Positions 4,112 through 30,941 of a stretch of DNA of 64,000 nucleotides are shown piece after piece. The position numbers were made by a program, and so were the translations under genes. The stretch spans positions 1 through 64,000 of the forward strand of contig NZ_JAFP01000001.1 of the NCBI RefSeq assembly GCF_000526195.1. The letters are read 5' to 3'. The notes beneath the pieces were generated by a model, which was not told the origin of the DNA, did no database searches, and worked only from the letters and a program-made list of their open reading frames with translations. The number at the start of each line of letters is the position of its first letter. Position 1 is the first letter of the stretch. This stretch comes from Hippea sp. KM1 (GTDB taxonomy: Bacteria > Campylobacterota_A > Desulfurellia > Desulfurellales > Hippeaceae).

Positions 4112-4918
4112 CTAACTTGGTGTATACAGGATTGTAGCAGGTCCATCCATTATCTGGTTTAGCTCTTTCAGCATCTCATCCCAGTGTCTCTTTCTCACCT
4201 TGCTTTTTATGTTCTTCTTCAGATGAAACCAGCATAGCTGATGCTTTGCTTTGGGGAATGCCTCCTCTATTGATCTTGAGAGCCCTTTTAGATCATCGCT
4301 GATTATCATTCTGACATTCTTTAGTCCCCTTGATTTTAGGTCCTCAAATATCTCTCTCCACATCTGTGTATTCTCATTGCCTCCAGGTAGGAAGTATGCA
4401 AGTATGTTTCTTCTGCCGTCGTATCTCAATCCCAGAACAGCATAAACTGCCTCTTTTTCTACACTGTCCCTCTTCAGAGGCAGGTATGTTGCATCTATGT
4501 ATAGGACTGGATACTCATCATCCAACCTTCTGTTTTTGAACTCCTCTATGACCTCTTTTGGTATGTCGGAAATATAGCTTGCAAACTGGGATGATATGGA
4601 ACATCCAATGAGATTTTCTAAAACCTTGCCTGCCTTCCTTGATGAGACTCCAGACACGAACATTGCCCTTATTATGTCATCAAGGAGAAACATCACCCTC
4701 TTTCTCTCAGGCAATACATCGCTTTTGAACTTGCCGTCCCTTGTTCTGGGGATGGAAAGCTCCATCTGACCTAATATTGTTTTTGGTGACCTTGTGTAAT
4801 ATCCATTTGCCCTTGTTGATTTGTTCTCTTCCAGATACCTGTCTCTTTCCTCTTTCATGATCCTTTCAATCATTGACTTGAATTCTTCCTTCAATTGTGT
4901 AAAAATCAAATCATACAT
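4112..4918 (-). pseudogene. IS256 (mutator) transposase, C-terminally truncated
   Basis: This is a 268-codon frame compared with 367 in the intact copies. Native sequence ends at KELNQIM; the tail DGPATILYTPS comes from the IS3 terminus. Both catalytic Asp regions remain (YIDATYLPLKRD, IISDDLKGLSR, and CWFHLKKN), but the Glu region (NWMERCFKELKDSL in the intact copies) is lost, so the product should be inactive. Confidence 0.9.
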
Positions 4919-5026: not shown

Positions 5027-5998
5027 ATGGATAAATTGGAAAAAGAAGAAAGATGCATGGATGTTTATCAGGATGATGAGATAGATTTATATGAGTTGTG
5101 GGAGAGGATATGGAAGTATAGAAAATTTATAGTTGTTTTTACACTCTCTTTGACGATAATAACCGTTGTGGCAACGCTTTTTATGGAGAATATTTATAAA
5201 AGCAGTGCTGTAATATTGCCAACCAAGCAGGGTTCAGGAGGAAGCTCTTTGGTATCTCAATACAGCGGCATTGCGTCTTTGGTTGGTATAAGCCTGCCCG
5301 GCTCGGGTGGCAGTGATGATATAATGGCCCTTTTGAAATCAAGGAGCTTGAAAAGGGAAACAATTGAGAAATACAATCTTTTGCCTGTTATACTTTATAA
5401 ATCGTGGGATAGTAAAAATAAGAGATGGATAGAAAAAGAGGGTATTATAACAAAAATAAAAAAAGCTATTTTTGGCTCCAAAAAGCAGGTTTTTAATAAA
5501 GAAGAAATAAGAATGTCAAAAGCTATTAAATCATTTTCCGATATGATAGATGTTAATGAGGATAAAAAGCTTGGAACGATTAGCGTATCTGTGGAGTATC
5601 CGGATCCTGTTATAGCCGCCAACCTTGTTGGTGATTTGCTTTCAACCTTAAAGGATAGGATGACCAAAGAGGCTATAGAAATTGCAAAAAAAAGAAAGAA
5701 GATATTGGAAGATGAACTTAATAAAACCCAGGATCCAACTATACAACAGAAGCTTTACAGTTTGATAGCGAAACAGGAAGAGACAATGGTTATGGCTAAG
5801 GTTAGTGAGGATTTTGCCTTTAAGGTTATCGATCCGCCCCAAATTCCTATTAAGAAATACAAACCCAAAAGAAAACTTATCGTTATAGTGGCTTTTATTA
5901 TGAGTCTTATTTTGGGTATTTTTTTGGTATTTTTTGTTGAGTTTATAAAAGAGGCTAAAAATAGGAGGCAAGAGATGCTGAAGGAGGAGTCGGCATGA
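5027..5998 (+). CDS. Wzz-type chain-length/co-polymerase protein
   Basis: This 323-residue inner-membrane protein has a Wzz domain. An N-terminal cytoplasmic stretch (DEIDLYELWERIWKYRK) precedes TM1 (about 34-53), then a long periplasmic, partly coiled-coil region (KRKKILEDELNKTQ), a GNVR-like segment with the proline motif PPQIPIKKYKPKR, and TM2 (about 286-308). There is no C-terminal tyrosine-kinase domain, so it is a polysaccharide co-polymerase without BY-kinase. The start at 5,027 follows GGAGGGAGG at 5,015. The stop overlaps the exporter gene by 4 bases. It likely sets polymer length together with the Wza-like protein downstream. Its promoter region was displaced by IS256. Confidence 0.85.
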   Translation: MDKLEKEERCMDVYQDDEIDLYELWERIWKYRKFIVVFTLSLTIITVVATLFMENIYKSSAVILPTKQGSGGSSLVSQYSGIASLVGISLPGSGGSDDIMALLKSRSLKRETIEKYNLLPVILYKSWDSKNKRWIEKEGIITKIKKAIFGSKKQVFNKEEIRMSKAIKSFSDMIDVNEDKKLGTISVSVEYPDPVIAANLVGDLLSTLKDRMTKEAIEIAKKRKKILEDELNKTQDPTIQQKLYSLIAKQEETMVMAKVSEDFAFKVIDPPQIPIKKYKPKRKLIVIVAFIMSLILGIFLVFFVEFIKEAKNRRQEMLKEESA

Positions 5999-8550
5999 AA
6001 AGAAGTGTTATTCTATTTGGAATCATTTTTATTATATTTGGTTTTGCTTTGGCTTCAAATAGCCAGAATATACAAGGCAGTCCTAATTTACCAGCAAATA
6101 TCTCTCAAACTCAGCTGCAACAGGTTATACAGAACAATCCGCAGTTTAAAGATTTAACGCCTGAGGAGATACAAAGAGCTTTGGAGATAGTTAGGAGTAA
6201 TAGAATTCAACAAAAACAGGCTTATAAAAGCAAATATAGGTTTTATGATAATACAACAGCAGATAATTTAACTGATAATATAACGAGGAATAAAAATTTT
6301 TATTCTGAAAGGGAATTTGACAATAATAGTGGGTTGTTTAGCATTTATCTTAAGACCTCATCTGGCGTTTTGGATATCTCTTTAGAAGATTTAAAACCTT
6401 ACGGTTACTCTCTGTTTGAAAGAAAACCCAGTGAACCTTTGTTTGTTCAACCTGTCCCACCAAATTATGTTATCGGTCCTGGTGATGAGATACAGGTGAT
6501 ACTGTGGGGAAGGATAAATGCACAATACAACCTTAAGGTTGGTGCAGACGGCAGGATATTCTTTCCTAATATAGGCCCATTAATGGTTGCCGGTATGACA
6601 TACAGTAAGATGCAGGATTTTTTAAAGGAACAGGCAAAGAGGATAATAGGGACAAATGTATCTATAACCCTTAATGGACTTCATCAAATTCAGGTTTTTG
6701 TTTTAGGAGAGGTAAAAAAACCCGGGTTGTATAGCTTGCCTGCCATGTCTACTGTTTTAGATGCTCTAATGGCGTGCGGTGGCCCAACAACACGGGGGAC
6801 ATTAAGAAAAATAGAGCTTAAAAGATATAACAGAGTGGTAAATGTTCTTGATATATACGATGTTTTGATGAAGGGCGATAGGTCGCATGATTGGATATTA
6901 AGAAACAACGATGTGGTTTTTGTGCCACTTGTAGGTCCGCTTGTAGGTATTGCCGGTAATGTGAAAAGACCGGGTATATATGAGTTGAAAAAACCGGCAA
7001 GCCTTAAGGATATAGTGAATATGGCTGGTGGATTACTGCCCAATGCCCTATCCCAGGTGATTCAGGTTGTAAGGTTTAAGAATCATAAATGGAGAATAGT
7101 TAAGGATATAGAGTTTGATAATAAAAAACTATTAAATAGCTTTATGGTTAAGGATGGAGATTTGGTTAAGGTATTTTCTGTCAGAAGTAATCTGAAAAAC
7201 TCCGTGGAGCTGATTGGTAATGTAAAGCATCCAGGTGTGTATTCATATCATCCCGGTATGAAATTAAGTGAATTAATAAAGAGCTATAATGATTTGTTGC
7301 CCAATACATATCTTAAATACGGCCTTATTAAGAGGTATAATACCTCTGAGACCGATACAGAACTGTTGAGATTTGATTTAAGAAAGATATTAAATGGTCA
7401 ATACGATATTGCCCTTAAACCATTGGATAAAGTCTATATATTCCCCAAATCCTTTTTTAAGCAGAAACCTAAATATTTTATATTCGGAGAAGTTAGAAAT
7501 CCGGGAATATATGAGACCTGGGATAGCAATTTTAGGATAAAAGACCTTATAATGAAAGCCGGGGGTTTAAAAGAAGGTGCCTATATGAAAAGAGCAGAGA
7601 TTGTATCTTATAAATACCTGGATAATGGATCCCTGGCTGAGATGTCAAGAAAGTATGTGGATTTAAGGTTGGCTATGATGGGTGATCCGTCCAATAATAT
7701 TTTGCTAAAACCATTTGATAGGGTTTTTATAAGGAAAATGCCTGGCTGGGGAGATGTAATTAATGTCACCATTAAAGGAGAGGTTAAATTCCCAGGTGTT
7801 TATACTTTGAAGAAGGGTGCTAAATTATCGGATTTAATTAAAGAAGCTGGTGGGTATAAGGACGATGCATATCTAAAGGGCGCTGAGTATCTATCACCAA
7901 CCGCCAGAGAGATTCAGCAAAAGGCTTTAGAGGAGCTTGTCAGAAAGCTGCAGTCACAGATATTCCTATCAACCAGCGAAACAAGCCAAAAATCCCTTTC
8001 CGCAGAAGAGGCCCAAACTGCCAAGACCCAGATGACACTGGCAGAAAGGTTTATTAATACGCTTAAACAGCTTAAGGCTAAAGGCAGGGTTGTTATAAGA
8101 TTGGCTCCTGTTAGGATAATGGAAGGCACCCCATATGATATTGAACTTGAGGATAAAGCGACACTTATTATACCGAAGGAAAAGGATATAGTAAGTGTTG
8201 TTGGCGCTGTAATGTCACCCTCAACATTCGTTTATTCGCCAGATTTCAGCTGGAAGGACTATATAAAAATGGCCGGAGGGTATTCTGAATTTGCGGATAA
8301 GAGCAATGTGTTTGTGCTAAAAGTTGATGGGAGCGCTTATAAGGTATCATCTGGTGCGGTTAAATGGAATCCGTTTAAATCCAGGTGGGAGGTTGCTGCC
8401 TTCTCGAACAAGAGTGAGCTTGATCCGGGTGATACCATTGTTGTTCCAAGTAAGGTTCAATTTACGCCGTGGTTGAGAAATATAAAGGATATTACTCAGG
8501 TTTTGATGCAGATAGCCGTTACAACAGGTGTTGTTCTTAAGTTGTATTAA
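5995..8550 (+). CDS. Wza-like polysaccharide export protein with six SLBB repeats
   Basis: The 851-residue protein has a signal peptide (MKRSVILFGIIFIIFGFALA) without a clear lipobox cysteine. A Q-rich helical stretch follows, then a Poly_export domain at about 155-215 (YVIGPGDEIQVILWG). SLBB-type units begin near residues 235, 317, 405, 495, 591 and 734; most show the G-x-V-x-x-P-G-x-Y pattern, e.g. GEVKKPGLY and GNVKRPGIY. The hydrophobic C-terminus (QIAVTTGVVLKLY) may span the outer membrane. E. coli Wza is about 380 residues; this enlarged form has extra SLBB units that should lengthen the periplasmic conduit. It is translationally coupled to the Wzz-like gene. Confidence 0.88.
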   Translation: MKRSVILFGIIFIIFGFALASNSQNIQGSPNLPANISQTQLQQVIQNNPQFKDLTPEEIQRALEIVRSNRIQQKQAYKSKYRFYDNTTADNLTDNITRNKNFYSEREFDNNSGLFSIYLKTSSGVLDISLEDLKPYGYSLFERKPSEPLFVQPVPPNYVIGPGDEIQVILWGRINAQYNLKVGADGRIFFPNIGPLMVAGMTYSKMQDFLKEQAKRIIGTNVSITLNGLHQIQVFVLGEVKKPGLYSLPAMSTVLDALMACGGPTTRGTLRKIELKRYNRVVNVLDIYDVLMKGDRSHDWILRNNDVVFVPLVGPLVGIAGNVKRPGIYELKKPASLKDIVNMAGGLLPNALSQVIQVVRFKNHKWRIVKDIEFDNKKLLNSFMVKDGDLVKVFSVRSNLKNSVELIGNVKHPGVYSYHPGMKLSELIKSYNDLLPNTYLKYGLIKRYNTSETDTELLRFDLRKILNGQYDIALKPLDKVYIFPKSFFKQKPKYFIFGEVRNPGIYETWDSNFRIKDLIMKAGGLKEGAYMKRAEIVSYKYLDNGSLAEMSRKYVDLRLAMMGDPSNNILLKPFDRVFIRKMPGWGDVINVTIKGEVKFPGVYTLKKGAKLSDLIKEAGGYKDDAYLKGAEYLSPTAREIQQKALEELVRKLQSQIFLSTSETSQKSLSAEEAQTAKTQMTLAERFINTLKQLKAKGRVVIRLAPVRIMEGTPYDIELEDKATLIIPKEKDIVSVVGAVMSPSTFVYSPDFSWKDYIKMAGGYSEFADKSNVFVLKVDGSAYKVSSGAVKWNPFKSRWEVAAFSNKSELDPGDTIVVPSKVQFTPWLRNIKDITQVLMQIAVTTGVVLKLY

Positions 8551-8551: not shown

Positions 8552-10615
8552 ATGAAGAAAGCCCTCCTGTTTTTATTGTTTTTTGCATTGATTAAGGGGT
8601 CGGTTTATGCAGCCGACTCCCCTTTTAATTCGCCTTCCAATTACGGTATATCTGGCTTGATGGCCATACCCAATGCAAGGGTAATGAAGAAAAACAGGTA
8701 TAGGTTTGGAGCAAGTTTTGTTTATCCGTATTGGAGATTTTACGGAACATTTTCTCCTCTTAAAAGGCTTGAGCTAAATGGCTTGATTACAGATATAATT
8801 GGGGTTAAAGGTTTTAGTAATAATAGTAAATACGGTAATTACAAGGATAAGGATATTGATTTTAAGTATCAGCTTTTTCCTGAGGGTAAATGGAGACCTG
8901 CTATAGCAATTGGCGGTAATGATTTAATTGGAACAAGACTGTATGCGTCACAATATTTGGTGTTTAGTAAACAGATATGGCCTTTTGATTTTACTATAGG
9001 TTTGGGAAACGGTAGGTATGGAAAGAAGCAACTTGGCAGAAGCAAGAGTAAATTTGAATTTGAGATGCTCCATCACCCTATTGAATGGTTTAAGGATTCT
9101 AAATTGTTCTGGGGTATTGAATTTGCACCCACTGATAGATACTCCCTTATGGTTGAATACAATCCTACTGAATTTCACAACCAAACCAAGGATCCTGCAA
9201 CCAGAAAATACTTCAAAAAACCTGTAAAATCACACTATAATTTTGGATTGAGATGGAAACCAAGAAAGTGGATAGAACTTGATCTGTCTTATCAGAGGGG
9301 GGAAAGATTTGCTGCCAATCTGTCTGCCAATTTTAATATAGGTAAGCCTCTTATTCCTATCTATGATCCACCATATGTTGAGCCTGTTGCTTATTTCAAA
9401 TACCCTATTGAGAGAAGGATTGCTTTGGCATTGCAGGAATCTGGGTTTAGCAATATCATGGTTAAAATAGAGGATAAAAGGCTGTATATAGTTGCAGAGA
9501 ACACAAAATACTTCTATCAGACAAGGGCATTAGGAGTTGTGTTAAATATATTAAAATCCATCCATCCCAAGGATAAAAAATTGGGTGTCTCTATAATACT
9601 GGAGAGGAACTTTATTCCAGAGTTTGAATTTACGACCACTGTTAGGGATATTGTAGATTTGAAAGACAAAAGAATTTCAAAAGATAATTTTTTGTATTTA
9701 TCTAAACTCAGAACGCAAAACATATATGTGCCTAAGGGTGAATTTAGTAATATCAGGATGTTCGATTGGGGTTTAAAGCCCAATACAGAAACATTTTTAA
9801 ACGACCCCTCAGGTTTCTTTAAATACAGAGCAGGTATTTCTTTGTGGGGTAAGTATTTCCCGTGGAAGGGCGGCAGTGTATATGTCTCTGTTAGTAAATA
9901 TTTCTTGAATAACATCTCCACAGTGAATAAACCACTATCAATACCTGTCAGGAGTGATATAGTTTTATATGAAAAACAGAACTTTAATCTGGACACATTG
10001 CTTTTTAATCAGATTTTTAAGGTGGGTGATGTGTATTTTAGGGGGGCAGTGGGCCTTTTGGAGTATGAATATGCAGGCATAGATGCTGAAGTTGCAAAAC
10101 CGCTCTTTGATGGAAAATTGCTTGTGGGTCTTGGTGGAAGCTTGGTTAAAAAGAGGAGTCCGGATAGGATGTTCGCCTTTGCAGATGCTAATAAACTAAA
10201 AGAGAATGTGAAAAAATACTATGCGCCGTTCTTTTTGAAGGCCAGGATAAACTTTCCATCGAAGGATCTGTTTTTCGATATAAAAGCAGGAAGATTCTTA
10301 GCAGGGGATTATGGGTGCAGATTCCAGATTTCAAAGGATATAAACGGTGTTATACTCTCTGCGTGGTATTCAATAACCAACACATCTGTTTTTCATGATA
10401 GTGTTAATAGGGGTTATCATGATTATGGTATATCTTTGAGTTTACCGATAAGGCTGTTTAAGGGTGAGGATAGTAAGGTGGTCTACGACTATTCTCTTTC
10501 GCCCTGGACGAGGGATGTTGCCCAGGATATAAAGCATCATAAAGAACTATTTAATTATATGAGACGAACACAACCGTGGTATCTCTATCATCATGGAAAT
10601 GAGATATTTAAATGA
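8552..10615 (+). CDS. YjbH/GfcD-like outer-membrane polysaccharide protein
   Basis: The 687-residue protein has a signal peptide (MKKALLFLLFFALIKGSVYA) and the YjbH-family opening NYGISGLMAIPNARV. It is rich in alternating aromatic beta strands throughout, as expected for an outer-membrane barrel. The ATG at 8,552 directly follows the exporter stop; an upstream in-frame start at 8,528 would only add residues before the signal peptide. YjbH/GfcD proteins accompany Wza-type exporters in yjbEFGH and group-4 capsule operons, and the neighbour at 11,148 resembles the small YjbE/GfcA member of the same systems. A role in polymer secretion or modification is inferred. Confidence 0.75.
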   Translation: MKKALLFLLFFALIKGSVYAADSPFNSPSNYGISGLMAIPNARVMKKNRYRFGASFVYPYWRFYGTFSPLKRLELNGLITDIIGVKGFSNNSKYGNYKDKDIDFKYQLFPEGKWRPAIAIGGNDLIGTRLYASQYLVFSKQIWPFDFTIGLGNGRYGKKQLGRSKSKFEFEMLHHPIEWFKDSKLFWGIEFAPTDRYSLMVEYNPTEFHNQTKDPATRKYFKKPVKSHYNFGLRWKPRKWIELDLSYQRGERFAANLSANFNIGKPLIPIYDPPYVEPVAYFKYPIERRIALALQESGFSNIMVKIEDKRLYIVAENTKYFYQTRALGVVLNILKSIHPKDKKLGVSIILERNFIPEFEFTTTVRDIVDLKDKRISKDNFLYLSKLRTQNIYVPKGEFSNIRMFDWGLKPNTETFLNDPSGFFKYRAGISLWGKYFPWKGGSVYVSVSKYFLNNISTVNKPLSIPVRSDIVLYEKQNFNLDTLLFNQIFKVGDVYFRGAVGLLEYEYAGIDAEVAKPLFDGKLLVGLGGSLVKKRSPDRMFAFADANKLKENVKKYYAPFFLKARINFPSKDLFFDIKAGRFLAGDYGCRFQISKDINGVILSAWYSITNTSVFHDSVNRGYHDYGISLSLPIRLFKGEDSKVVYDYSLSPWTRDVAQDIKHHKELFNYMRRTQPWYLYHHGNEIFK

Positions 10616-10636
10616 GAAATAATGAAAGTTGAGGGA

Positions 10637-11131
10637 TTAGTGGTTAAAGAATGTTTCAGCTAAACCTACTTTCCATGAGCCGTTTTCCTTCTTCATGAGC
10701 AAAAAAACAGGATTGGGGGCTTTTTTGTATTTGATTGTTATCTTTGCATCGTCTGCGTGTATATATTTTATATTCCAGCTGCTTTGGTTAAGTATGATAT
10801 CTGGGTTGAAATATCTTAAATAAGCATCCCAATAATCACGGGCAAGGCCTTTGCCTTTCTTAAAGCTGGATCTTACTATATTTACATCACACTTTCCTGA
10901 AGATTTTTTTATAAATTTACACACATCCTTTATGATTATGCTTTTGGATTGTTCTGTCAACAATTGCCATATGCCTCTATAATCCTTGCTTTTCATCATC
11001 CTGAAGAAGGTATCGGCTCTATTGAGGATTAAAGAAGACTCCCTCTCAAACTGAGAGAGAGCCCAAGAATTAACACCAATTAACGACCCAATAAATAATA
11101 GATAAAAAATCAGCCAGCTACTTTTTCTCAT
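10637..11131 (-). CDS. Exported protein of unknown function
   Basis: The 164-residue protein starts with a signal peptide (SSWLIFYLLFIGSLIGVNSWA). The mature part has helix-then-strand character (NRADTFFRMMKSKDYRGIWQLL ... AKITIKYKKAPNPVFLLMKKENGSWKVG) reminiscent of NTF2-like/DUF4878 periplasmic domains. I do not recognise a specific family. Two cysteines (in IIKDVCKFIKK and GKCDV) could form a disulfide. It is convergent with the YjbH-like gene (21 bases between stops) and lies 16 bases after the Ala/Gly-rich gene, with which it is probably co-transcribed. It occupies roughly the place of the lipoprotein member (YjbF/GfcB) of related systems but shows no lipobox. Confidence 0.6.
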   Translation of the reverse strand: MRKSSWLIFYLLFIGSLIGVNSWALSQFERESSLILNRADTFFRMMKSKDYRGIWQLLTEQSKSIIIKDVCKFIKKSSGKCDVNIVRSSFKKGKGLARDYWDAYLRYFNPDIILNQSSWNIKYIHADDAKITIKYKKAPNPVFLLMKKENGSWKVGLAETFFNH

Positions 11132-11147
11132 AGAGCAAAGATTAATT

Positions 11148-11513
11148 CTAATGATGATGAGTTGTCGTTGTTCCGCCTGTGGATGCAGCTATAGCAGCTA
11201 TAACACCTGCTGCCACCACAGCTCCAGCTGCTATAGTTCCTGTACTAACTCCCGCAATAGTTGCTGCCCCTGCTGTTGCCCCAGCTGTTGCGGCTCCTGC
11301 TCCAGCTGCCCCTGCCGCAGCTCCTCCAGATGCTCCTCCTGCTGCTGCACCTGCGCCACCAGCAGCTGCTCCAGATGAACCTCCACCGCTTGTAGCTGCA
11401 GCTGCTCCACCCCCTGCGGTTGCAGGCGCAGCCATAACAACAGGTGTAACACCCAAAACCGTAGCAACACACATACTTAAAACACCAATACCTACTTTCT
11501 TTTTCAGCTTCAT
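11148..11513 (-). CDS. Small Ala/Gly-rich secreted protein, YjbE/GfcA-like
   Basis: The 121-residue protein has a signal peptide (LKKKVGIGVLSMCVATVLGV, cleaved near VMA-APAT). A low-complexity Gly/Ala/Ser tract follows, then a glycine-zipper-like hydrophobic segment (GTIAAGAVVAAGVIAAIAA), then a polar TGGTTTTHHH tail. E. coli YjbE and GfcA share this layout: signal, low complexity, small-residue hydrophobic segment, Thr-rich tail. They sit in operons with YjbH/GfcD homologues, as here. Identity is inferred from architecture and context, because low-complexity sequence cannot be aligned reliably. It has its own promoter and a strong ribosome site (AAGGAGGGAG). Antisense frames across it are composition artefacts. 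Confidence 0.65.
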   Translation of the reverse strand: MKLKKKVGIGVLSMCVATVLGVTPVVMAAPATAGGGAAAATSGGGSSGAAAGGAGAAAGGASGGAAAGAAGAGAATAGATAGAATIAGVSTGTIAAGAVVAAGVIAAIAASTGGTTTTHHH

Positions 11514-11546
11514 CTTCTCCCTCCTTCTAATTATATCTACTAAATC

Positions 11547-11575
11547 CTTATAGCAAATAGAGCTACTAAAGTCAA
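11547..11575 (-). promoter_or_regulatory. Promoter of the Ala/Gly-rich gene
   Basis: On the minus strand, TTGACT (11,575-11,570) and TATAAG (11,552-11,547) are separated by 17 bases. The predicted mRNA has a leader of about 25-30 bases with AAGGAGGGAG before the ATG at 11,513. It is divergent from the promoter of the WecA-type gene. Confidence 0.6.
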
Positions 11576-11592
11576 TTTTATTTTAATATATT

Positions 11593-11621
11593 TTGACATA
11601 TAAATTGTAAATTACTAAAAT
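11593..11621 (+). promoter_or_regulatory. Promoter of WecA-type gene, apparently leaderless
   Basis: TTGACA (11,593-11,598), a 17-base spacer and TAAAAT (11,616-11,621) are followed after six bases by the ATG at 11,628. Transcription would start at or next to the A of the start codon. No ribosome site is visible. Confidence 0.6.
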
Positions 11622-11627
11622 TACTAC

Positions 11628-12665
11628 ATGAACCAGTTTTTAATTGTTTTTGTAGTAGTTTTTTATGTCTCTTTAATTAGCTGTTTTTTTTTAATTTATT
11701 TGGCAAGACATAGGGGGTTGTTTCTTGATAAAGTTAAAGAGAATAAGCCCCAAAGGTTCCATCAAGATGACACTCCAAGAATAGGCGGGTTAGGCATATT
11801 CCTTGCTTTTTTAATAGGATCGTTGTTTTTTGCTAATACTTTGGCTTTAAAACTATTTTTAGCAAGTTTGCCTGTCTCCATTGGCGGATTTTTGGAAGAC
11901 TCTTCAATAAAGGTAAGTCCAAAAATAAGACTAATATTGGCTTTTTTGTCTGCTTTTTTGGTTATTTTATTTACAGGAGTTTTGCTTAAGAATCTGGGCT
12001 TTGCGCCTTTTAGGCATTTACATTACGCAATAGCCTTTGTATTCACGGTTTTTGCTGTAGCTGGTGTGGTAAACTCTATAAATATAATCGACGGTTTCAA
12101 CGGCCTTGCAAGTGGCTTTTCTCTGATTGCTTTAGCTGTGTTTTCTGCTGTGTCATACCAATTGCACGACACTGCCCTATTTGAAATTAGCTTGGTTTTG
12201 TTCTTTTCTACACTGGGCTTCTTTGTTTTGAACTTTCCCTTCGGCAAGATCTTTTTAGGCGACGGCGGGGCTTATTTTTTGGGTTTCATGCTTGCAGAGT
12301 TATCTGTGTTTTTAGTCTCAAGACACCCCCAGGTCTCCCCTTGGTTCTGCCTGGCAGTCATGATATACCCCGTCTGGGAGGTGATATTCTCCTTCTATAG
12401 AAAAAAGTTTTTACGCGGAACATCTCCGTTTGAACCAGATAGATTTCATTTTCATATGCTTGTTTTTCGCAGACTTACAAAATCAAACCCCAAAACATCA
12501 CTCCTCATCTTGAGCTTTATCATTCCTTACGAATTTGCCCTCTATTTCTTCAAAAACCGAACATCAATCTCAATGCTCTTCATTTTGTTTTTTATAGTTG
12601 CCTACAACATGTCATACCATGCAATTGTGTGGCACAGAGGCAAACCCCCATCTTACACCTCGTAG
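11628..12665 (+). CDS. WecA/MraY-family undecaprenyl-phosphate sugar-1-phosphate transferase
   Basis: This 345-residue integral membrane protein has about ten TM helices. Its cytoplasmic-loop motifs are RIGGLGIFLAF, GGFLEDSSIKVSPKIRL (the usual D-D pair reads E-D), NSINIIDGFNGLASG (about residue 148) and FLGDGGAYFLG (about 210), with a late His motif DRFHFHMLVFRRL. It should start glycan assembly by moving a sugar phosphate, probably an N-acetylhexosamine, onto undecaprenyl phosphate. It is the only initiating enzyme in the window, so the heptose-containing polymer is likely built on it. The donor sugar cannot be told from sequence. Confidence 0.85.
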   Translation: MNQFLIVFVVVFYVSLISCFFLIYLARHRGLFLDKVKENKPQRFHQDDTPRIGGLGIFLAFLIGSLFFANTLALKLFLASLPVSIGGFLEDSSIKVSPKIRLILAFLSAFLVILFTGVLLKNLGFAPFRHLHYAIAFVFTVFAVAGVVNSINIIDGFNGLASGFSLIALAVFSAVSYQLHDTALFEISLVLFFSTLGFFVLNFPFGKIFLGDGGAYFLGFMLAELSVFLVSRHPQVSPWFCLAVMIYPVWEVIFSFYRKKFLRGTSPFEPDRFHFHMLVFRRLTKSNPKTSLLILSFIIPYEFALYFFKNRTSISMLFILFFIVAYNMSYHAIVWHRGKPPSYTS

Positions 12666-13271: not shown

Positions 13272-14375
13272 CTATCCAAAAGCCTCCATCAGGTATTCAG
13301 AGTATCTGAGCTTTCTTGATGAATACTTCTCATCCTTATCTTTGAAGAAAAGGTAAAGGAACTTTTCAGCACTGTCCTCAGAATGGAGATAACCCCTAAT
13401 TCTTAAAGAATCCTTTAATTCCTTGAAACACCTCTCCATCCAGTTTGTTGTTGAAAAGTATACCTTTATCTTTTCATTGAGGTTTGAGAAGTGTGTATAG
13501 TTCTTGACTTTACTTTTTAGGCTGTTTAGGGATTTATAGAGCCTACTCCATTTGTCGATGAACTCATTCATCAAGAGTTCTGCCTCCTCTTGGGTCTTAG
13601 CCTCCATTATCTGGTTTAGCTCTTTCAGCATCTCATCCCAGTGTCTCTTTCTCACCTTGCTTTTTATGTTCTTCTTCAGATGAAACCAGCATAGCTGATG
13701 CTTTGCTTTGGGGAATGCCTCCTCTATTGATCTTGAGAGCCCTTTTAGATCATCGCTGATTATCATTCTGACATTCTTTAGTCCCCTTGATTTTAGGTCC
13801 TCAAATATCTCTCTCCACATCTGTGTATTCTCATTGCCTCCAGGTAGGAAGTATGCAAGTATGTTTCTTCTGCCGTCGTATCTCAATCCCAGAACAGCAT
13901 AAACTGCTTCTTTTTCTACACTGTCCCTCTTCAGAGGCAGGTATGTTGCATCTATGTATAGGACTGGATACTCATCATCCAACCTTCTGTTTTTGAACTC
14001 CTCTATGACCTCTTTTGGTATGTCGGAAATATAGCTTGCAAACTGGGATGATATGGAACATCCAATGAGATTTTCTAAAACCTTGCCTGCCTTCCTTGAT
14101 GAGACTCCAGACACGAACATTGCCCTTATTATGTCATCAAGGAGAAACATCACCCTCTTTCTCTCAGGCAATACATCGCTTTTGAACTTGCCGTCCCTTG
14201 TTCTGGGGATGGAAAGCTCCATCTGACCTAATATTGTTTTTGGTGACCTTGTGTAATATCCATTTGCCCTTGTTGATTTGTTCTCTTCTAAGTACCTGTC
14301 TCTTTCCTCTTTCATGATCCTTTCAATCATTGACTTGAATTCTTCCTTCAATTGTGTAAAAATCAAATCATACAT
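13272..14375 (-). CDS. IS256 (mutator) transposase, copy B
   Basis: The 367-residue DDE transposase begins MYDLIFTQLKEEFKSM. Catalytic regions are YIDATYLPLKRD, IISDDLKGLSRS followed by QLCWFHLKKN (the C-x2-H of mutator transposases), and Glu in NWMERCFKELKDSL. The ribosome site AAAGGAGG lies eight bases before the ATG and falls partly in the hairpin arm described for copy C. The gene is intact and probably functional. Confidence 0.93.
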   Translation of the reverse strand: MYDLIFTQLKEEFKSMIERIMKEERDRYLEENKSTRANGYYTRSPKTILGQMELSIPRTRDGKFKSDVLPERKRVMFLLDDIIRAMFVSGVSSRKAGKVLENLIGCSISSQFASYISDIPKEVIEEFKNRRLDDEYPVLYIDATYLPLKRDSVEKEAVYAVLGLRYDGRRNILAYFLPGGNENTQMWREIFEDLKSRGLKNVRMIISDDLKGLSRSIEEAFPKAKHQLCWFHLKKNIKSKVRKRHWDEMLKELNQIMEAKTQEEAELLMNEFIDKWSRLYKSLNSLKSKVKNYTHFSNLNEKIKVYFSTTNWMERCFKELKDSLRIRGYLHSEDSAEKFLYLFFKDKDEKYSSRKLRYSEYLMEAFG

Positions 14376-18719: not shown

Positions 18720-19982
18720 TTACTGCTTCCATGCCCCCAAAGCCGTCGGATCAAGTCTTGTCCTTTTATAAACATAAATCCCAAGGATTATATTCCACAT
18801 TATCATACTGGTTGAGGTCGCAATTGCTGCCCCTTTTGCACCAAGGTGTGGTATAAGCATAGCGTTTAAAATCACATTAACCACAGCACTCACTCCCACG
18901 CCAAAAGCTACATCCTTCTCATGTCCTGTCATTGCAAGTATTAATCCCACTGAGCCAGCGGAGGCATTTATTAACTGTCCGATACTTAATATTGCCAATG
19001 TACTACTACCAGCCATAAATTCCTTGCCAAACAACCATAAAGCCAGCTTACCTTTGTATATCAAAAAAACAGCTATTGGTAAAGAGAGAAAAAATACAGC
19101 TCTTGCACTTTTTGTAATAACATTTTGTAATTGTTTCAAGTTATTTTTAGCGTATAATTCTGCAATCGTCGGGGCCATAGCTGCGTTAACGGAGGCAAGA
19201 ATGAAAACGATAAGAGTTGCCACCCTTGTTGCTACAGCATATATACCAGTCGCATAAGCTCCTTTCATTGCTCCCAGCATAATAATATCTGTTTGAGAGT
19301 TGATCAAACCTAATACACCTGACAATAAGAGTGGTAAAGCGCTTTTTATCCAGAATTTTGCTTTGTATTTTGCTTTTTCGAGCTTAATTTCGGGCGGCAG
19401 GTAGTTTCTTAAAATATAAAACGAAAAGACTAAAGCGACTATCACTGCAACTATATTTAACTCTATAGTTCTTGAAGGATTTAAATTTATTTTAGAAAAA
19501 TAAGCGATAGCAATAACTATAAGGAAAATCAAAGGTCTAATTGTAGAACTTGAGATTTGACCCATTATAATGTGTTTAAGTCCCTGTATTGCTGCCTCTT
19601 TAAGCTGCAGAAGACCTAAGAAAGGCAATAGTAATACAGCTATTCTAAATGGTAAAAGCATTTCATGGTTTAAATGGCTTTGAAATATGAACGTGATTAC
19701 AAAAGATAAGCTCGCAGCTATTATGGCATTTATAAGAATGACTCTCTCTGACCATTTCAAAAAGCCTCTTAGATACCCCCATTTCTTTTTGCTACTATAT
19801 ATGGATACCTGCTTAGTGGTTAGTACAGGCAAGCCAAACACAACAAAAACATTGATAAAATCTACCAACGATAATGCATAGGCATAAGCCCCATATCCCT
19901 TTGCTCCTAACATGTGAGCAAGAAGTAAGCTTGTTAGAAATCCTAAACCTACCGAGGAAACCTTTAACAGGAATGTGCCCAA
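18720..19982 (-). CDS. Wzx-type polysaccharide flippase
   Basis: The protein has about 420 residues and 12 or more TM helices, of the Polysacc_synt/MOP family (GFLTSLLLAHMLGAKGYGAYAYALSL). It should flip undecaprenyl-linked repeat units to the periplasm, completing the Wzx/Wzy/Wzz/Wza set in the window. The start is uncertain: the frame is open well upstream without ATG or GTG, and family members usually contain the SHLTKSALGTF stretch that precedes this TTG, so initiation may be further upstream at a rare codon. Base composition resembles the native genes more than blocks I-III. The stop abuts ISL3 copy 2. Confidence 0.8.
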   Translation of the reverse strand: MGTFLLKVSSVGLGFLTSLLLAHMLGAKGYGAYAYALSLVDFINVFVVFGLPVLTTKQVSIYSSKKKWGYLRGFLKWSERVILINAIIAASLSFVITFIFQSHLNHEMLLPFRIAVLLLPFLGLLQLKEAAIQGLKHIIMGQISSSTIRPLIFLIVIAIAYFSKINLNPSRTIELNIVAVIVALVFSFYILRNYLPPEIKLEKAKYKAKFWIKSALPLLLSGVLGLINSQTDIIMLGAMKGAYATGIYAVATRVATLIVFILASVNAAMAPTIAELYAKNNLKQLQNVITKSARAVFFLSLPIAVFLIYKGKLALWLFGKEFMAGSSTLAILSIGQLINASAGSVGLILAMTGHEKDVAFGVGVSAVVNVILNAMLIPHLGAKGAAIATSTSMIMWNIILGIYVYKRTRLDPTALGAWKQ

Positions 19983-20338
19983 TGCGCTTTTTGTAAGGTG
20001 AGAGCGAAGAGAGTTAGCATTTGCCTCTGAATTCAGTCCGAAACTTTTAAATAATTTTGAATTTTGAATTTTGAATTTTAGATTAGAAGTTTTTGCTAGC
20101 GGAGTAATTGTGTTTAAGTGCGCTGTTTGGTTACTGTTTTTAATTACCGTACCCTCCTACTCAATCCCATTGTAAACATCGCAAACCTTATTTGTGTAAT
20201 CCAGAATCTAAAACTAAAAAACCTTTTTAATTTACTTTTTCCTGCTCCAAAGCTCCTTCTCCCTCTACCATTCACCAATTAACCCATTATCCCATTCACC
20301 AATCCTACCAATTATCCTTTGTTCAAACTCTGAACGCA
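19983..20338. other. Gene-free 356-bp leader with short repeats
   Basis: No gene is recognised. On the minus strand this is the region between a strong promoter (20,339-20,366) and the flippase, so it would be a long 5' leader. It contains three tandem AATTTTG units near 20,053-20,079 and two copies of CCATTCACCAAT (20,268-20,279 and 20,292-20,303) in a pyrimidine-rich tract. No ops/JUMPstart element is seen. Confidence 0.45.
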
Positions 20339-20366
20339 ATTATAGAAATAAAATAGACAAGGTCAA
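20339..20366 (-). promoter_or_regulatory. Promoter reading toward the flippase
   Basis: On the minus strand, TTGACC (20,366-20,361), a 16-base spacer and TATAAT (20,344-20,339). It resembles a second promoter at 21,000-21,028 over some 50 bases, suggesting a duplicated promoter module. Confidence 0.55.
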
Positions 20367-20385
20367 GAAGATTTAAATGCATAGC

Positions 20386-20553
20386 CTATACATTTTCAAG
20401 CTCCTCCAAAATCTTTTTTATTTGTTTCTTTAGAGTAGGTAAATTATTCTTTATAGTATCCCATACAGATTCAGCATCAACACCAAAGTAGTCATGTATC
20501 AGCACATCTCTAAAACCTGCTATTTCTCTCCATTTTATCTTAGATTTAGACAT
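20386..20553 (-). CDS. hepT: HepT-like HEPN toxin, N-terminally truncated
   Basis: The 55-residue frame matches the C-terminal half of HepT (DUF86) proteins: IKWREIAGFRDVLIHDYFGVD, then VWDTIKNNLPTLKKQI. The HEPN catalytic motif R-x4-H-x-Y (RDVLIHDY) is intact. The usual first 55-60 residues, which form much of the helical bundle, are missing, yet an ATG at 20,553 lies in frame and overlaps the MntA stop by 8 bases as in intact operons. It is either a decayed toxin left beside its antitoxin or a minimal form. Confidence 0.65.
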   Translation of the reverse strand: MSKSKIKWREIAGFRDVLIHDYFGVDAESVWDTIKNNLPTLKKQIKKILEELENV

Positions 20554-20872
20554 AAATTACTTCGTTTAAAATTTCTTCTTTTATTTGAGATTTAATCGCA
20601 CTTTTCGTAACGAGATCGACTTTTTTGTTAAATATCTTCTCAAGATAATGCTTTAACCTCATATAATTTAAGAAGTCCTTGTGATACTTATCGAATTTCA
20701 CAAGTATGTCAATATCGCTATCATTTGATTGCTCTCCTCTAACCATAGTTCCAAAAACCCCTATTTCTTTTACATGGAATTTAGATTGTAAGTATTGTTT
20801 GTTTGACTTTAAGAAAGATAATATATGTGTAAGCTCGTCGTTTTTATGGGTAACAGAATCAAATTTCCGCAT
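20546..20872 (-). CDS. mntA: MntA-type nucleotidyltransferase antitoxin
   Basis: The 108-residue protein has a minimal nucleotidyltransferase fold: GVFGTMVRGEQSNDSDIDILV contains the G-x-x-x-R-G and D-x-D catalytic motifs. In type VII MntA/HepT systems this enzyme adds AMP to a tyrosine of the HEPN toxin. The ATG at 20,872 follows AAAAGGGG; an upstream TTG adds three residues. The C-terminus (IKEEILNEVIYV) is family-typical, so the antitoxin is complete while its toxin partner is shortened. Confidence 0.75.
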   Translation of the reverse strand: MRKFDSVTHKNDELTHILSFLKSNKQYLQSKFHVKEIGVFGTMVRGEQSNDSDIDILVKFDKYHKDFLNYMRLKHYLEKIFNKKVDLVTKSAIKSQIKEEILNEVIYV

Positions 20873-20999
20873 AAGGATCAACCCCTTTTCCGAGATTGCT
20901 ACTTTTATTTAAACTTATCTCTTTTTCGCTTATTTTTCAAACTTTTTTGAGAAGTGCTCGCAAGGACTGCATCTCATTCAAAATCTGAATGCAAATTCA

Positions 21000-21028
21000 A
21001 ATATAAGAATTAAAACAGGGAGAGTCAA
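21000..21028 (-). promoter_or_regulatory. Promoter reading toward mntA
   Basis: On the minus strand, TTGACT (21,028-21,023), 17 bases, TATATT (21,005-21,000), about 120 bases before the mntA start. Surrounding sequence parallels the promoter at 20,339-20,366 (shared TTCTTGAC and TTCAGA-x-TTTG). Confidence 0.5.
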
Positions 21029-21075
21029 GAAGAATCAAATTTTGAATCAAGAACTATAGGTCGACAGATCTTCGT

Positions 21076-21183
21076 TTAGCAAAACAGCTTCCTTACCAAT
21101 TCCTCTTTTGATATTCCAATATAATCTGCAACTTCTTTCAATATGTTGTTCAATGTTCCTATTTTTATTGGGCTATGCGTATA
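21076..21183 (-). pseudogene. HicA/YcfA-like toxin, C-terminal fragment
   Basis: The minus-strand frame reads YTHSPIKIGTLNNILKEV then ADYIGISKEELVRKLF and stops at 21,076. This matches the end of HicA-type dsRBD mRNA interferases (K-x-G-T-L-x-x-I-L-K). The 5' part has been removed by the IS3-family element at 21,184. No HicB partner is seen. Confidence 0.6.
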
Positions 21184-21271
21184 TTGCCCCCACTTGTCAA
21201 GTCAATTCTTCCCATTTCCCTTTTCCTTCTCTCTCCTTAACCCTCAGTTAACAGGACTACTCACCTCCTTT

Positions 21272-22444
21272 TCAAGCAACTATGTTTTCTTTTGTTTCTG
21301 ACATACACCCATATACCTCAAAAGGCGTCTTATATCCAATAGCAGAGTGTAATCTCTTGCTATTGTAGGTGTGTATGTATTCATCTATTCCAGTTTTTGC
21401 GTCTTTGAATCTCTCATAGCAGCTTGGATAGATATTCTCCTGTTTTAAGCTTCTGAAGAACCTCTCCATGTGTATGTTGTCAAAACACCTGCCCTTGGCA
21501 TCCATGGATATGGATATGTTGTGTTTCTTTAGAAGCTCTATTGTCCTGTTTGAGGTGTATTGGCTCCCCTGGTCAGAGTTGAAGATATCGGGTCTTCCGT
21601 ATTTTTCTATAGCAGATTCTATAGTCCTTACAACAAGTTCATCATCCATTGTTGGTGATAGTTTGTGTGATAATACAGCCCTTGATTTTAGGTCCATTAT
21701 GACGCACAGATAGGCAAAGCCCTTACAGAGCCTGATGTATGTGATATCTGAGACCCATACCTGATTGGGCTTTGTGGGTATTATGTCGTTTAGCAGATAT
21801 GGATAGGCCTTTGTGTTCTTATCCAATTCTGTTGTTTTAAATCTCTTCCTTTTGGGATATAAAGCCCTTATGCCCATAATCTTCATGAACCTTGTTATTC
21901 TTCTCTTTCCCACATTATCAAAGCCTTTTCTTCTCAACTGGTGGTATATCCTTCTGTATCCGTAGTATGGAAACTCTGTGTATATCTCATCAATGGCATT
22001 CATGATTTCTATGTCTTCTTCTGAAATCTCTGGCTTGTTCTTGTAATACAGTGTAGACCTGTTCATCCCTAAAAGCTCTGTTTGCCTGGTGATTGAAAGG
22101 TTTTTGAGCTTGGGCTCCACCAGGCTCTTCTTAGTCTTCAAGCCCAAGCTCTTTAATTTTTTTAATACCCAGTCCCTTTCTATGGTAGCCTGACCCAATG
22201 CTTTGGATAGAGCCTCAATTTGGGATTCCTTCTCTCTTATCTCCTCTTTATACTTCTTTGCCGGGACAGCATTCTCAAAGGCTAAGGATGCATTCTCCAA
22301 AAACTGCTTCTTCCACTGATGTATGGATTTAGGTAATATGCCGTATTTGGATGCAATCTCACTTACACTCTTGTCACCTTCCAACAACTCTAAGACCACT
22401 TTGGCCTTAAACTCAGAAGAAAACTTTCTGTGTTTCTTTGACAC
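21272..22444 (-). CDS. IS3-family transposase, OrfA-OrfB in one frame
   Basis: The 390-residue protein has an N-terminal HTH (SSEFKAKVVLELLEGDKSVS), a coiled segment (KEEIREKESQIEALSKAL), HTH_21 (YYGYRRIYHQLRRKG) and an rve DDE core: WVSDITYIRL, FNSDQGSQYTS and NIHMERFFRSLKQE. Unlike most IS3 elements no frameshift is needed. The GTG start at 22,444 follows GAGGAGG by six bases. It appears intact. Confidence 0.88.
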   Translation of the reverse strand: MSKKHRKFSSEFKAKVVLELLEGDKSVSEIASKYGILPKSIHQWKKQFLENASLAFENAVPAKKYKEEIREKESQIEALSKALGQATIERDWVLKKLKSLGLKTKKSLVEPKLKNLSITRQTELLGMNRSTLYYKNKPEISEEDIEIMNAIDEIYTEFPYYGYRRIYHQLRRKGFDNVGKRRITRFMKIMGIRALYPKRKRFKTTELDKNTKAYPYLLNDIIPTKPNQVWVSDITYIRLCKGFAYLCVIMDLKSRAVLSHKLSPTMDDELVVRTIESAIEKYGRPDIFNSDQGSQYTSNRTIELLKKHNISISMDAKGRCFDNIHMERFFRSLKQENIYPSCYERFKDAKTGIDEYIHTYNSKRLHSAIGYKTPFEVYGCMSETKENIVA

Positions 22445-22485
22445 AACAACCTCCTCAAATCAATCAAACTTTTAAGACTAAATCA

Positions 22486-22555
22486 GATTTAAGAACATCT
22501 GATTACTTCTCAAATCTTATCAGATTTGAGAAGAGAAGTGTTCAAAAATCTGATG
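22486..22555. repeat. Hairpin and repeated ATCTGAT motifs at IS3 5' end
   Basis: A perfect 12-base stem with loop TATC spans 22,506-22,533. AATCTGAT/ATCAGATT-type octamers also occur near 22,485, 22,497 and 22,547. Lying between the transposase start and the terminal repeat, they could be transposase-binding sites or a structure that blocks read-in expression. Confidence 0.5.
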
Positions 22556-22574
22556 AAGTTTACGGGGCATTATA

Positions 22575-22737
22575 GGTGTACTCCTGAGGAGTATTTGGAG
22601 AACCACTACAGAAATACTGACAAAAGAGAAGAAGAAACACAACAAGTAGAGCAGAAAGAGGCAGTGTGATTAAAAAAGAGGGGGGGTTTTTTAAAAAACA
22701 TGACTAATTGGGTGTATAAAAAAAGGTTGACAGACCA
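22575..22737 (+). mobile_element. IS3-family remnant (3' end of the 2,795-4,145 type)
   Basis: From GGTGTACTCCTGAGG this matches the end of the OrfB gene of the left IS3 element (TPEEYLEN to its stop) and its terminal repeat, ending GGTTGACAGACCA at 22,737. It joins ISL3 sequence exactly as in the left chimera. The remainder of the IS3 was lost. Confidence 0.8.
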
Positions 22738-23818
22738 GAGTGCTTATGATACTATAACAAAGAAGTGGAGACATCTAAACTTCTTTGAGCATGAGTGTTA
22801 TCTTCATGCAAGAATCCCAAGGGTAAAACTGCCGGATGGAACTATAAAAACAATAAAAGCTCCCTGGGAGGGTGTAAGCAGTGGATTTAGTCTGCTTTTT
22901 GAAGCTTTACTTTTGCAGCTATGCTCATCCATGCCTGTTAATCAGGTATCTAAACTCATCAATGTCCACAATGATAAAATATGGGATATGCTTGATAAAT
23001 ATGTGAATAAAGCAAAAGAATATGAAGATTCCTCCAATATTGATTCTGTAGGTATAGATGAAACAAGTATAGCCAAGGGACATGAATACATCACCCTGTT
23101 TGTGGATTTAAACAAAAGGAGAACACTGTTTGTGGCAGAGGGCAAAGATGCATCAACAGTCAAAGAGTTTGTAAAAGACTTTAAAGAGCATAAAGCAGAG
23201 ATAGACAACATTAGAAATGTCAGTTGCGATATGTCGCCTGCATTCATCAAAGGAGTAAAAGAACACATACCCAATGCCGATATTACATTCGATAAGTTTC
23301 ATATCCTTAAGATTATCAATGAGGCAGTGGATAGTGTAAGAAAACAAGAATCCAAAGAAAATAAACTGCTGAAAGGAACCAAATATATCTGGCTTAAGAA
23401 TAAACATAATCTCACAAGAAAACAGAGAGAGGCTTTGAAAGAATTGACAATATCAAATATGAATCTGAAAACTATAAGGGCATATAACATAAGACAGTCT
23501 TTTCAAGACATCTATAATGCAGAAACAGAAGAAGAGTTTACAGCCTACCTGAAAAAATGGTATTTCTGGGCAACCTATTCAAGATTAAAACCCATAATAG
23601 AGTCTGCAAGAACAATTAAAAAACACTGGAATGGAATCATAAATTGGTTTAGAAGCAGAATCAACAATGGAATACTTGAGGGATTAAACTCTGTTATTCA
23701 GGCAGCAAAGGCAAAAGCAAGAGGATATAGGACATTTAAAAACTACAGAATTATAGTATACCTTCTAACAGGCAAACTTGATTTCAGTCTGGTCAACAAG
23801 AGTTTGAGGGGGATTTAG
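22700..23818 (+). pseudogene. ISL3-family transposase, chimeric copy 3
   Basis: The 372-codon frame has a product identical to the minus-strand chimera ending at 1,714. It starts within the IS3 terminal repeat (MTNWVYKKRLTDQ) and enters ISL3 at SAYDTITKKW. The DDE residues remain but the ISL3 N-terminus is missing. The stop lies four bases before the IS-encoded GTG used by the downstream glycosyltransferase. Confidence 0.85.
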
Positions 23819-23855
23819 TGTTGTGGGAGTTACCCATAAGAAAGTGGAAAGAGCC
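22738..23855 (+). mobile_element. ISL3-family element, copy 3, 5'-truncated
   Basis: The 3' terminal repeat GTGGAAAGAGCC ends at 23,855. The 5' end is replaced by the IS3 remnant at the same point as in copy 1. Together with the IS3 remnant, about 1.28 kb is shared, as an inverted copy, with 1,677-2,957. Confidence 0.85.
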
Positions 23856-28036: not shown

Positions 28037-28085
28037 ATTAATTATGAATTTTAAATTATAAATTTTGAATTAAAAAGGAGAGAGG

Positions 28086-29392: not shown

Positions 29393-29608
29393 AACCTCAT
29401 ATAATCTCCACCCAACAGCTCCAATATAAGCCTATGCTTATCTTCCAACCCAACAATTTGCTCTTGGTTGTTTAGAATAAGTAGATGTATGGCAAAGAAG
29501 TTCTCAAACACCCACCTTACTGTTGGGTTCTGAATGGGTTTTCCAAGCTGATTGGGAAAGGTCTTGCTTTTATTCTTAAGATCACTTCTTATTCTTATAA
29601 TGCCCCCG
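29354..29608 (-). mobile_element. IS1634-type element, 3' remnant
   Basis: The minus-strand frame 29,608-29,359 encodes NQLGKPIQNPTVRWVFENFF, then IVGLEDKHRLILELLGGDYM and a stop, the C-terminal end of IS1634-type transposases. The terminal repeat (outward GGTGCGGAATGAGGG) lies inside the hddC 3' end. IS256 copy C cuts it at 29,608. The N-terminal remnant is at 14,471-14,742; the middle, several hundred codons, is absent from the window. Confidence 0.75.
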
Positions 29609-29633
29609 GGCAGTGTAAAATTACTTGTGTCAC

Positions 29634-29692: not shown

Positions 29693-29703
29693 AGGAAAAA
29701 CAC

Positions 29704-30807: not shown

Positions 30808-30885
30808 ATGGGGAAACTAAGTGAACCAAACAGGAAGAGGGGTGACACAAAAAAGTTGACATTGCCCTTCAAAATCAAACATTAT

Positions 30886-30914: not shown

Positions 30915-30941
30915 CTCACCAAAAATTGGGAGGTTTAATCC

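Follow-up and report, generated by a model that had tools for sequence, protein, structure and literature searches.

A GfcA/YjbE-like exported peptide next to YjbH in Hippea sp. KM1 and its association with YjbH-type exporters in several phyla

Introduction

GfcA/YjbE is among the least understood parts of group 4 capsule-type polymer export and surface retention. The first 64,000 nucleotides of the 1.74-Mb single-contig genome of Hippea sp. KM1 (NZ_JAFP01000001.1; this stretch is called the window) encode a 121-residue Ala/Gly-rich exported peptide close to a YjbH homologue, which raises the question whether such a low-complexity peptide is a real part of a polysaccharide export machine. An initial annotation had described these two genes together with a third for an exported protein of 164 residues, and all three are present (Table 1). 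It had considered the function of YjbE and GfcA unknown, which understates the record, because deletion of gfcA abolishes the group 4 capsule: in the part of a 2013 study used here, enteropathogenic Escherichia coli lacking gfcA lost the capsule, regained it with plasmid-borne gfcA and displayed more laddering of the lipopolysaccharide (LPS) O-antigen (PMC3853201).

The available parts of further publications list a +9 bp insertion in yjbE as a candidate mucoidy mutation alongside mutations in yjbG and yjbH (PMC8540638), describe GfcA as a Thr-rich inner-membrane or secreted protein, perhaps O-antigen-modified and directed to GfcD, and cite a loss of buoyancy upon loss of any gfc gene (Larson et al., PMC8592465), or model a lateral exit of lipids and call GfcA and GfcD uncharacterised (Fruet et al., PMC11494523). 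The requirement of GfcA for the group 4 capsule is already known from the published genetics. Apparently new are the association of such peptides with YjbH across phyla and the family of the 164-residue protein, for both of which no report was found among the open-access papers listed.

Peptide genes near yjbH in several phyla

A peptide-type gene was found with yjbH in 19 of the 23 opened non-chlamydial loci, 15 of them by a scan and four by inspection (L014, L054, L051 and L053). All but one of the 19 accepted peptides are encoded within 2.2 kb of yjbH, the last one at the edge of a separate contig. The peptide was present in three of three loci of Desulfurellales (one by inspection, on a contig separate from yjbH), in four of four of Deferribacterota (two by inspection, with a C-terminal extension), in both loci of the phylum of genomes G162 and G622 (one by inspection), in both E. 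coli loci and in the single Paraburkholderia locus. Among Rhodobacterales the scan found it in seven of ten loci; Paracoccus (L079) has a borderline, acidic-tailed candidate and no peptide was found by scan in the Roseivivax and Marinovum loci. The single Aeromonas locus has none, and its yjbH appears, as read by eye, to be broken by a transposase. As judged from the sequences, these data support the occurrence of the peptide architecture together with YjbH in Desulfurellales, Deferribacterota, the G162/G622 phylum and alpha-, beta- and gammaproteobacteria. The initial annotation had made its case depend on an association beyond enterics and this strain, and such an association exists.

The YjbH loci were collected with the family PF06082, which had matches at E<=0.001, most of them weak, in 33 of 386 relatives. 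It was found at E<=1e-20 in four of 50 genomes of Deferribacterota, and in two of three genomes of the G162 phylum and 132 of 190 genomes of a phylum taken as Chlamydiota. The name Deferribacterota for the phylum of G271 rests on 15,000 bases of a G396 contig that match the plasmid of Deferribacter desulfuricans SSM1 at 100%. For the phylum of G140, the name Chlamydiota was adopted since the best match of a small plasmid of G434 is to Chlamydiifrater plasmids (about 21% of it, at 66%), which account for five of the 12 matching records, the others being Lawsonia, Waddlia and more. The ZipA family (PF04354), used for seeking Gammaproteobacteria, was absent from 70 relatives; hence, the proteobacterial loci come only from plasmid searches (190 and 194 records with a match, 12 opened) and from E. 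coli K-12, and are no random sample. A contig search with one YjbH protein returned a single locus.

The scan selected open reading frames (ORFs) on both strands with a signal, an uncharged small-residue helix and a short Ser/Thr-rich tail, with an upper length of 220 residues in earlier scans and 260 in the full scans of 36 YjbH loci and controls. This filter was written after several positives were known, which are not independent; loci L074-L090 and the controls were first scanned later. In the 36 YjbH loci there were 15 matches, all within 2.2 kb of yjbH (344,696 bases lie within 4 kb), and none in the remaining 236,378 bases. The controls gave five matches in 2,366,769 bases (nine own-genome stretches counted once), none of which resembles the peptide by eye. 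Four of them stem from the own genome outside the window (1,679,113 bases, with none in 80,000 further bases) and one, unlike such a peptide, from seven loci (113,407 bases) with an outer-membrane polysaccharide export (OPX) gene and no YjbH. There was no match in nine loci with weak YjbH-like genes that were not treated as YjbH (131,812 bases), in L014-L017 (46,059 bases) or in 13 other stretches (260,000 bases).

Against a Poisson expectation of 0.73 the 15 observed matches correspond to P ~3e-15, where loci are taken as independent and the previously known positives are included. The enrichment near yjbH is about 20-fold over a background of about two matches per Mb. Five of the nine YjbH loci that were first scanned after the filter existed (L083 and L075-L082) had a match (L083, L075-L078), where the control rate would predict about 0.2. 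When 19 loci lacking an accepted match were scanned with a relaxed filter, this added the borderline L079 and two ORFs in the chlamydial locus L065, which were rejected by eye. A purely compositional search for Ala, Gly, Ser and Thr was noisier, with false matches in L055, L070 and six in the control scan, and was given up.

A second low-complexity exported type was seen in Deferribacterota, on the same contigs as yjbH (L176:149-556 and L177:10227-10622); these proteins are rich in Gly, His and Ser, end in TTTD repeats and are not picked by the helix-tail scan. The opened chlamydial loci (L057-L069) contain neither an accepted peptide nor a gene for the 164-residue protein. A gene read by eye, which we take to be nqrA, is next to or near YjbH in L059, L061 and L067, and presumably hemB in L059 and L067.

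The peptide gene and its conserved parts

The ORF of the window peptide is a real gene under coding constraint, because it is preceded by a strong ribosome site (gaaggagggagaag-ATG) and has relatives, and because its 93 codons aligned to the peptide gene of the sister genome G003 differ at 23, 10 and 42 first, second and third positions, respectively. Past the predicted signal, 87% of the residues are Ala, Gly, Ser or Thr. A signal, a spacer, a small-residue helix near the C-terminus, a Ser/Thr tail and a gene near yjbH were all found, in agreement with the YjbE/GfcA-like layout of the initial annotation; the signal and helix calls come from a simple script rather than a trained predictor.

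The peptide and 164-residue protein genes form a minus-strand pair convergent with yjbH, as in G003, whose peptide has 101 residues and the end TTAHH. The neighbourhood described initially was thus correct, but both genes are antisense to yjbH and outside its operon. In G017, from another family, a contig opens with the last 50 codons of the peptide gene (...AIAASGSSSSSSSTVTTTAHH), after which come a gene for a homologue of the 164-residue protein and wzz. Its yjbH ends close to the border of a separate contig, so that the gene order across the two contigs can only be presumed. Both genes are located downstream of yjbH on the same strand in L050-L054 and L083, and the order in Deferribacterota and the G162/G622 phylum is yjbH, peptide, 164-residue protein.

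The tract varies from Gly-Ala repeats in L050 to nearly none in L071 and L078. The helix often starts with G-G-[IVL] with another Gly nearby, and the tail is rich in Ser and Thr. T-x-H-H or THHH stands at or near the end of seven of the nine non-proteobacterial peptides (exceptions L051 and L053), and proteobacterial peptides end in N, K, Q, E, D, R or P. Hence, by sequence comparison the conserved part is the helix with the tail and not the Ala/Gly tract. In 17 aligned peptides the last 14 positions have at most one Lys or Arg, except in L053, which makes a cytoplasmic tail by the positive-inside rule unlikely.

Two ideas on the peptide were dropped, namely a substitute for the outer-membrane helix of OPX, because the OPX protein has its own C-terminal hydrophobic stretch (...ITQVLMQIAVTTGVVLKLY), and a sortase-type C-terminal signal, because no basic cluster follows the helix.

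YjbH and its two kinds of neighbours

The window YjbH matches PF06082 with 444.6 bits (cut-off 24) over positions 3-657 of 658, with the ATG at 8552 preferred over the mechanical GTG call at 8528. Its AlphaFold2 (AF2) model, calculated from ten rows without proteobacterial ones, has a predicted local distance difference test (pLDDT) value of 78.8 and contains 12 strands at 49-262, a mixed alpha/beta domain at 279-387 and 13 strands at 404-651, as counted from the strand list of the model. This predicted succession of barrel, alpha/beta middle and barrel is the layout given for GfcD in the sections consulted of PMC8592465 and PMC11494523. The identity to other YjbH proteins is 76% for G003, 52% for G017, 49% for G622, 34-36% for four Deferribacterota and 24% for E. 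coli YjbH/GfcD.

In a tree of 24 YjbH proteins the eight from loci with the 164-residue protein (100/100), the 13 proteobacterial ones (100/98) and three chlamydial ones (100/100) are apart. This sample includes three of the 13 chlamydial loci, leaves out the broken L082 and the partial L054, and uses the YjbH-like part of the Paraburkholderia fusion. YjbF/GfcB is annotated in 11 of the 14 proteobacterial loci; two others are unannotated records and in the remaining one a hypothetical protein occupies that position, and Paracoccus and Marinovum belong to the YjbF group of the tree by clade, without annotated YjbF in their records. From this split of the tree two export types are distinguished at the sequence level, in which the neighbour of YjbH is either YjbF (in annotated proteobacterial records) or the 164-residue protein, and the peptide occurs in both. 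The Paraburkholderia YjbH (L075:6272-9091) has 939 residues with an N-terminal extension, and resembles the GfcC-GfcD fusion OtnG mentioned in PMC8592465, as far as that text was available.

The 164-residue protein, which the initial annotation had left unrecognised, did not match any Pfam or NCBIfam family significantly (lowest Pfam E=0.26), and nothing significant was found in a PDB sequence search; PDB profile rows, mostly butyrophilin at E>=0.02, were taken as chance. Nine members align with 19 invariant columns. Co-occurrence was recorded in 434 distinct genomes (386 relatives and 50 Deferribacterota, two shared), nine of which have YjbH at E<=1e-59 (G000, G003, G017, G140, G162, G271, G404, G410 and G412). 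The family is present at E<=1e-57 in eight of these nine, all but the chlamydial G140, and at full length in none of the 425 others; no probability is attached to this pattern, the genomes being related. Presence of the family and of YjbH toggles within Desulfurellales (three of 19) and Deferribacterota (four of 50). Counted as absent were weak, partial matches in G324, G384, G342 and G255 (E 4e-6 to 3e-4; one with 10 stops), a second match in G003 (E=0.008, one stop) and a 32-residue remnant in G016. The search scored at most nine first-look candidates per genome, so that a relative may have been missed. The protein was found in non-proteobacterial, non-chlamydial YjbH loci, and tblastn gave no homologue in 14 proteobacterial, 13 chlamydial and seven OPX-only loci. 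On this sequence basis the protein founds an exported family linked to YjbH.

An apparent deletion scar in G016 (L015, about 9500-10500) joins the 5' part of a gene named ydcF-like by eye to the last 32 codons of the gene for the 164-residue protein. G017 keeps ydcF, a glycosyltransferase family 4 (GT4) gene, OPX and yjbH on one contig and the peptide, the 164-residue protein and wzz on another, and compared with this order it looks as if GT4, OPX, yjbH and the peptide gene had been lost from G016 as one block.

The AF2 model of the 164-residue protein has a pLDDT of 88.4 and its fold is probably NTF2-like, although the best Foldseek match is not significant (E=0.085) and the VIA Z values of 8.6 to 7.1 are near the background of that aligner. 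Many of the VIA rows are NTF2-like proteins by title or are taken to be such. The GfcB structure 2IN5, named in the part of PMC8592465 used, is not among the fold matches listed, which excludes nothing.

Proposed function and alternatives

The peptide is probably a real part of an export machine, because look-alikes are found beside the same exporter in several phyla. The pairing on which the initial annotation based this proposal is borne out by 19 of 23 non-chlamydial loci compared with five scan matches in 2.37 Mb of control sequence. We consider it likely that the peptide is a Sec-exported accessory subunit of a YjbH/GfcD-type machine, in which helix and tail are the working parts and an NTF2-like protein takes the place of YjbF. 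The locus would then secrete polysaccharide in the manner of group 4 capsule export: Wzz would set the chain length, OPX would span the periplasm and the YjbH double barrel would be the outer-membrane exit. With the role of GfcA transferred to it by analogy, the peptide would be the functional counterpart of GfcA/YjbE, with the low-complexity tract as variable spacer. Its helix may self-associate or pack into a membrane or barrel assembly, and its neutral Ser/Thr/His tail may project into the periplasm or sit at the exit, where contacts with polymer or YjbH would allow export of the chains and their retention on the cell. With a peptide of this layout recurring next to YjbH in distant phyla, what looked like a low-complexity oddity becomes a conserved component; the survey also indicates which part of it is conserved and contributes a partner family whose members are predicted to be soluble.

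This partner may act in the periplasm in place of the lipoprotein YjbF/GfcB. Such a replacement, already suggested initially, agrees with the lack of relation to YjbF/GfcB in profile comparison, the lack of a lipobox and the complementary distribution over loci. Among eight scanned locus proteins there was none of the YjbF/GfcB family (the rest of the genome was not searched for YjbF), none of GfcC/YjbG at E<=1 (a weaker GfcC-like part within OPX is not excluded) and no tyrosine kinase or phosphatase.

E. coli gfcABCDE-etp-etk and yjbEFGH share with the window the YjbH/GfcD double barrel and a small exported peptide that combines a signal, a small-residue helix and a Thr/Ser tail, and gfc alone also has an adjoining OPX gene. 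They differ in that the window has the 164-residue protein with its probable NTF2-like fold instead of YjbF/GfcB, its peptide and 164-residue protein genes antisense to yjbH, and a tail ending in His. Rhodobacterales plasmid loci with yjbH and yjbF (e.g. Phaeobacter, Ruegeria, Thioclava) likewise encode a small exported helix and Ser/Thr-tail protein near yjbH, whereas its spacer is often minimal, its tail ends in N, K, E or D, and a YjbF lipoprotein stands where the window has the 164-residue protein. As an analogy only, YbjP (DUF3828), the lipoprotein partner of TolC, is a small protein of the periplasm that docks on an exporter in the outer membrane, according to the portion of PMC13082787 at hand; it appears weakly in the Foldseek listing for the 164-residue model (rank 22, E=0.51) and differs in being a lipoprotein, with no sequence relation shown.

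Several observations weigh against an accessory subunit. In the 13 chlamydial YjbH loci neither the scan nor the relaxed scan gave a peptide that was accepted, L080 and L081 lack one by scan and L079 is only borderline. The scan misses four of 19 accepted cases, so that its negatives, including the OPX-only controls, are no proof of absence, and the peptide was sought in single loci rather than in whole genomes of relatives that lack YjbH. Not every member has a free tail, since in L051 (9997-10683) and L053 (7166-7843) of Deferribacterota a long C-terminal extension follows the helix, with the end of L051 still being rich in His and Thr (THTVSNHFTVTHHAY). The cross-phylum alignment of these low-complexity peptides has no invariant column. 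Finally, neither the window nor the G003 peptide matches PF11106 (YjbE), and kinship to YjbE therefore rests on architecture and position; GfcA itself does not match PF11106 either, and the Paraburkholderia peptide only at E=0.14.

Regarding the mechanism, we favour a docking or structural subunit, followed by a glycan carrier and then a matrix protein. As a carrier or anchor, a role that Larson et al. (2021) proposed for GfcA, the peptide would be O-glycosylated with polymer at its Ser/Thr tail and YjbH would export or anchor the conjugate. We regard this as a tentative possibility that is more doubtful than not: most members have a stretch rich in Ser and Thr after the helix, yet L079 ends in DDDDH without a Ser/Thr run, L054 and L083 have only four Ser or Thr in the last 14 positions, and no O-oligosaccharyltransferase was recognised by Pfam in 28 window proteins (none was sought in other genomes). 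The enhanced LPS O-antigen laddering together with capsule loss in the gfcA mutant looks as if polymer were re-routed (PMC3853201), but re-routing is expected from any export block; in the accessible text of PMC8117528, anchored colanic acid of evolved E. coli is not on lipid A cores, which counts in favour of a carrier or anchor. That YjbH/GfcD barrels export, or anchor at the outer membrane, polysaccharide carried by GfcA/YjbE-like peptides, either as covalent acceptors or as non-covalent anchors, appears rather doubtful. If true, it would define a class of protein-anchored capsules present in several phyla, in which the carrier would be handled in the periplasm by the NTF2-like protein or by YjbF/GfcB.

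It seems unlikely that the peptide is a secreted matrix protein of amyloid or silk type, which would pass through the FapF-like barrel at the N-terminus and retain polymer on the cell surface. In the part used of Saidi et al. (2022; PMC9603273), FapF was the match for the N-terminal barrels of both GfcD and YjbH, and amyloid secretion through such a barrel was suggested for GfcD; two members from Deferribacterota (L050, L052) have long Gly-Ala repeats. However, L071, L073 and L078 of Rhodobacterales keep helix and tail almost without a tract, so that what is conserved is not a fibre-forming repeat. It is improbable that the peptide is a regulatory or stress-signalling factor outside the machine, the loss of which perturbs the envelope with indirect effects on the polymer; Rcs is an enterobacterial system, whereas the peptide association spans phyla. 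The parts available of PMC8117528 and PMC8540638 connect changes in E. coli yjb genes with mucoidy or with overproduced colanic acid, but the gfcA deletion causes loss, not gain, of the strain's own capsule (PMC3853201). We give very little credence to a coincidence or compositional artefact, i.e. to low-complexity ORFs arising anywhere. Exported Gly/Ser/Thr-rich proteins do exist elsewhere (L176, L177), the scan has its background and some positives preceded the filter, but the enrichment near yjbH, the matches in loci first scanned afterwards, and the ribosome site and codon constraint of the window gene argue against it.

Genomic context

Table 1. Features of the export locus (positions in the window).
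Feature	Position	Strand	Basis
wzz-like chain-length determinant (Wzz + GNVR)	5027..5998	+	PF02706 E=3.2e-12, PF13807 E=2.3e-9
OPX outer-membrane polysaccharide export protein, multi-SLBB	5995..8550	+	PF02563 E=6e-18, PF10531 in six stretches
YjbH/GfcD double beta-barrel porin (predicted)	8552..10615	+	PF06082 E=1.1e-132; AF2 model
164-residue exported protein, YjbH-linked family, probable NTF2-like fold	10637..11131	-	nine-member alignment, co-occurrence, AF2 pLDDT 88.4, VIA Z up to 8.6
121-residue YjbE/GfcA-like exported peptide	11148..11513	-	signal, A/G/S tract, small-residue helix (GVSTGTIAAGAVVAAGVIAAIAAS), tail TGGTTTTHHH
Intergenic stretch separating the peptide gene from the divergent WecA-like gene	11514..11627	.	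ribosome site of the peptide gene at its edge
WecA-like glycosyltransferase family 4	11628..12665	+	PF00953 E=1.6e-30; TIGR02380 E=1.9e-32, under its cut-off

No kinase domain was matched by Pfam in the wzz-like protein. Several of 20 further window proteins scanned with Pfam are a flippase, glycosyltransferases, products of sugar-nucleotide genes and transposases, which by their family matches mark the region as a surface-polysaccharide region rich in insertion sequences. Matches to dnaA, DNA polymerase III beta, a RecF/SMC-type ATPase, gyrB and gyrA (18720-31946 and 32001-40369) adjoin it, and judging from these neighbours the region is probably situated beside the replication origin. Two nearly identical copies of a mutator-type transposase (4112-4918, the shorter left copy, and 13272-14375; 773 aligned bases, score 765) flank the wzz-OPX-yjbH-GT4 block in the same orientation, and a third such transposase is located at 29704-30807; the flanked block may be mobile.

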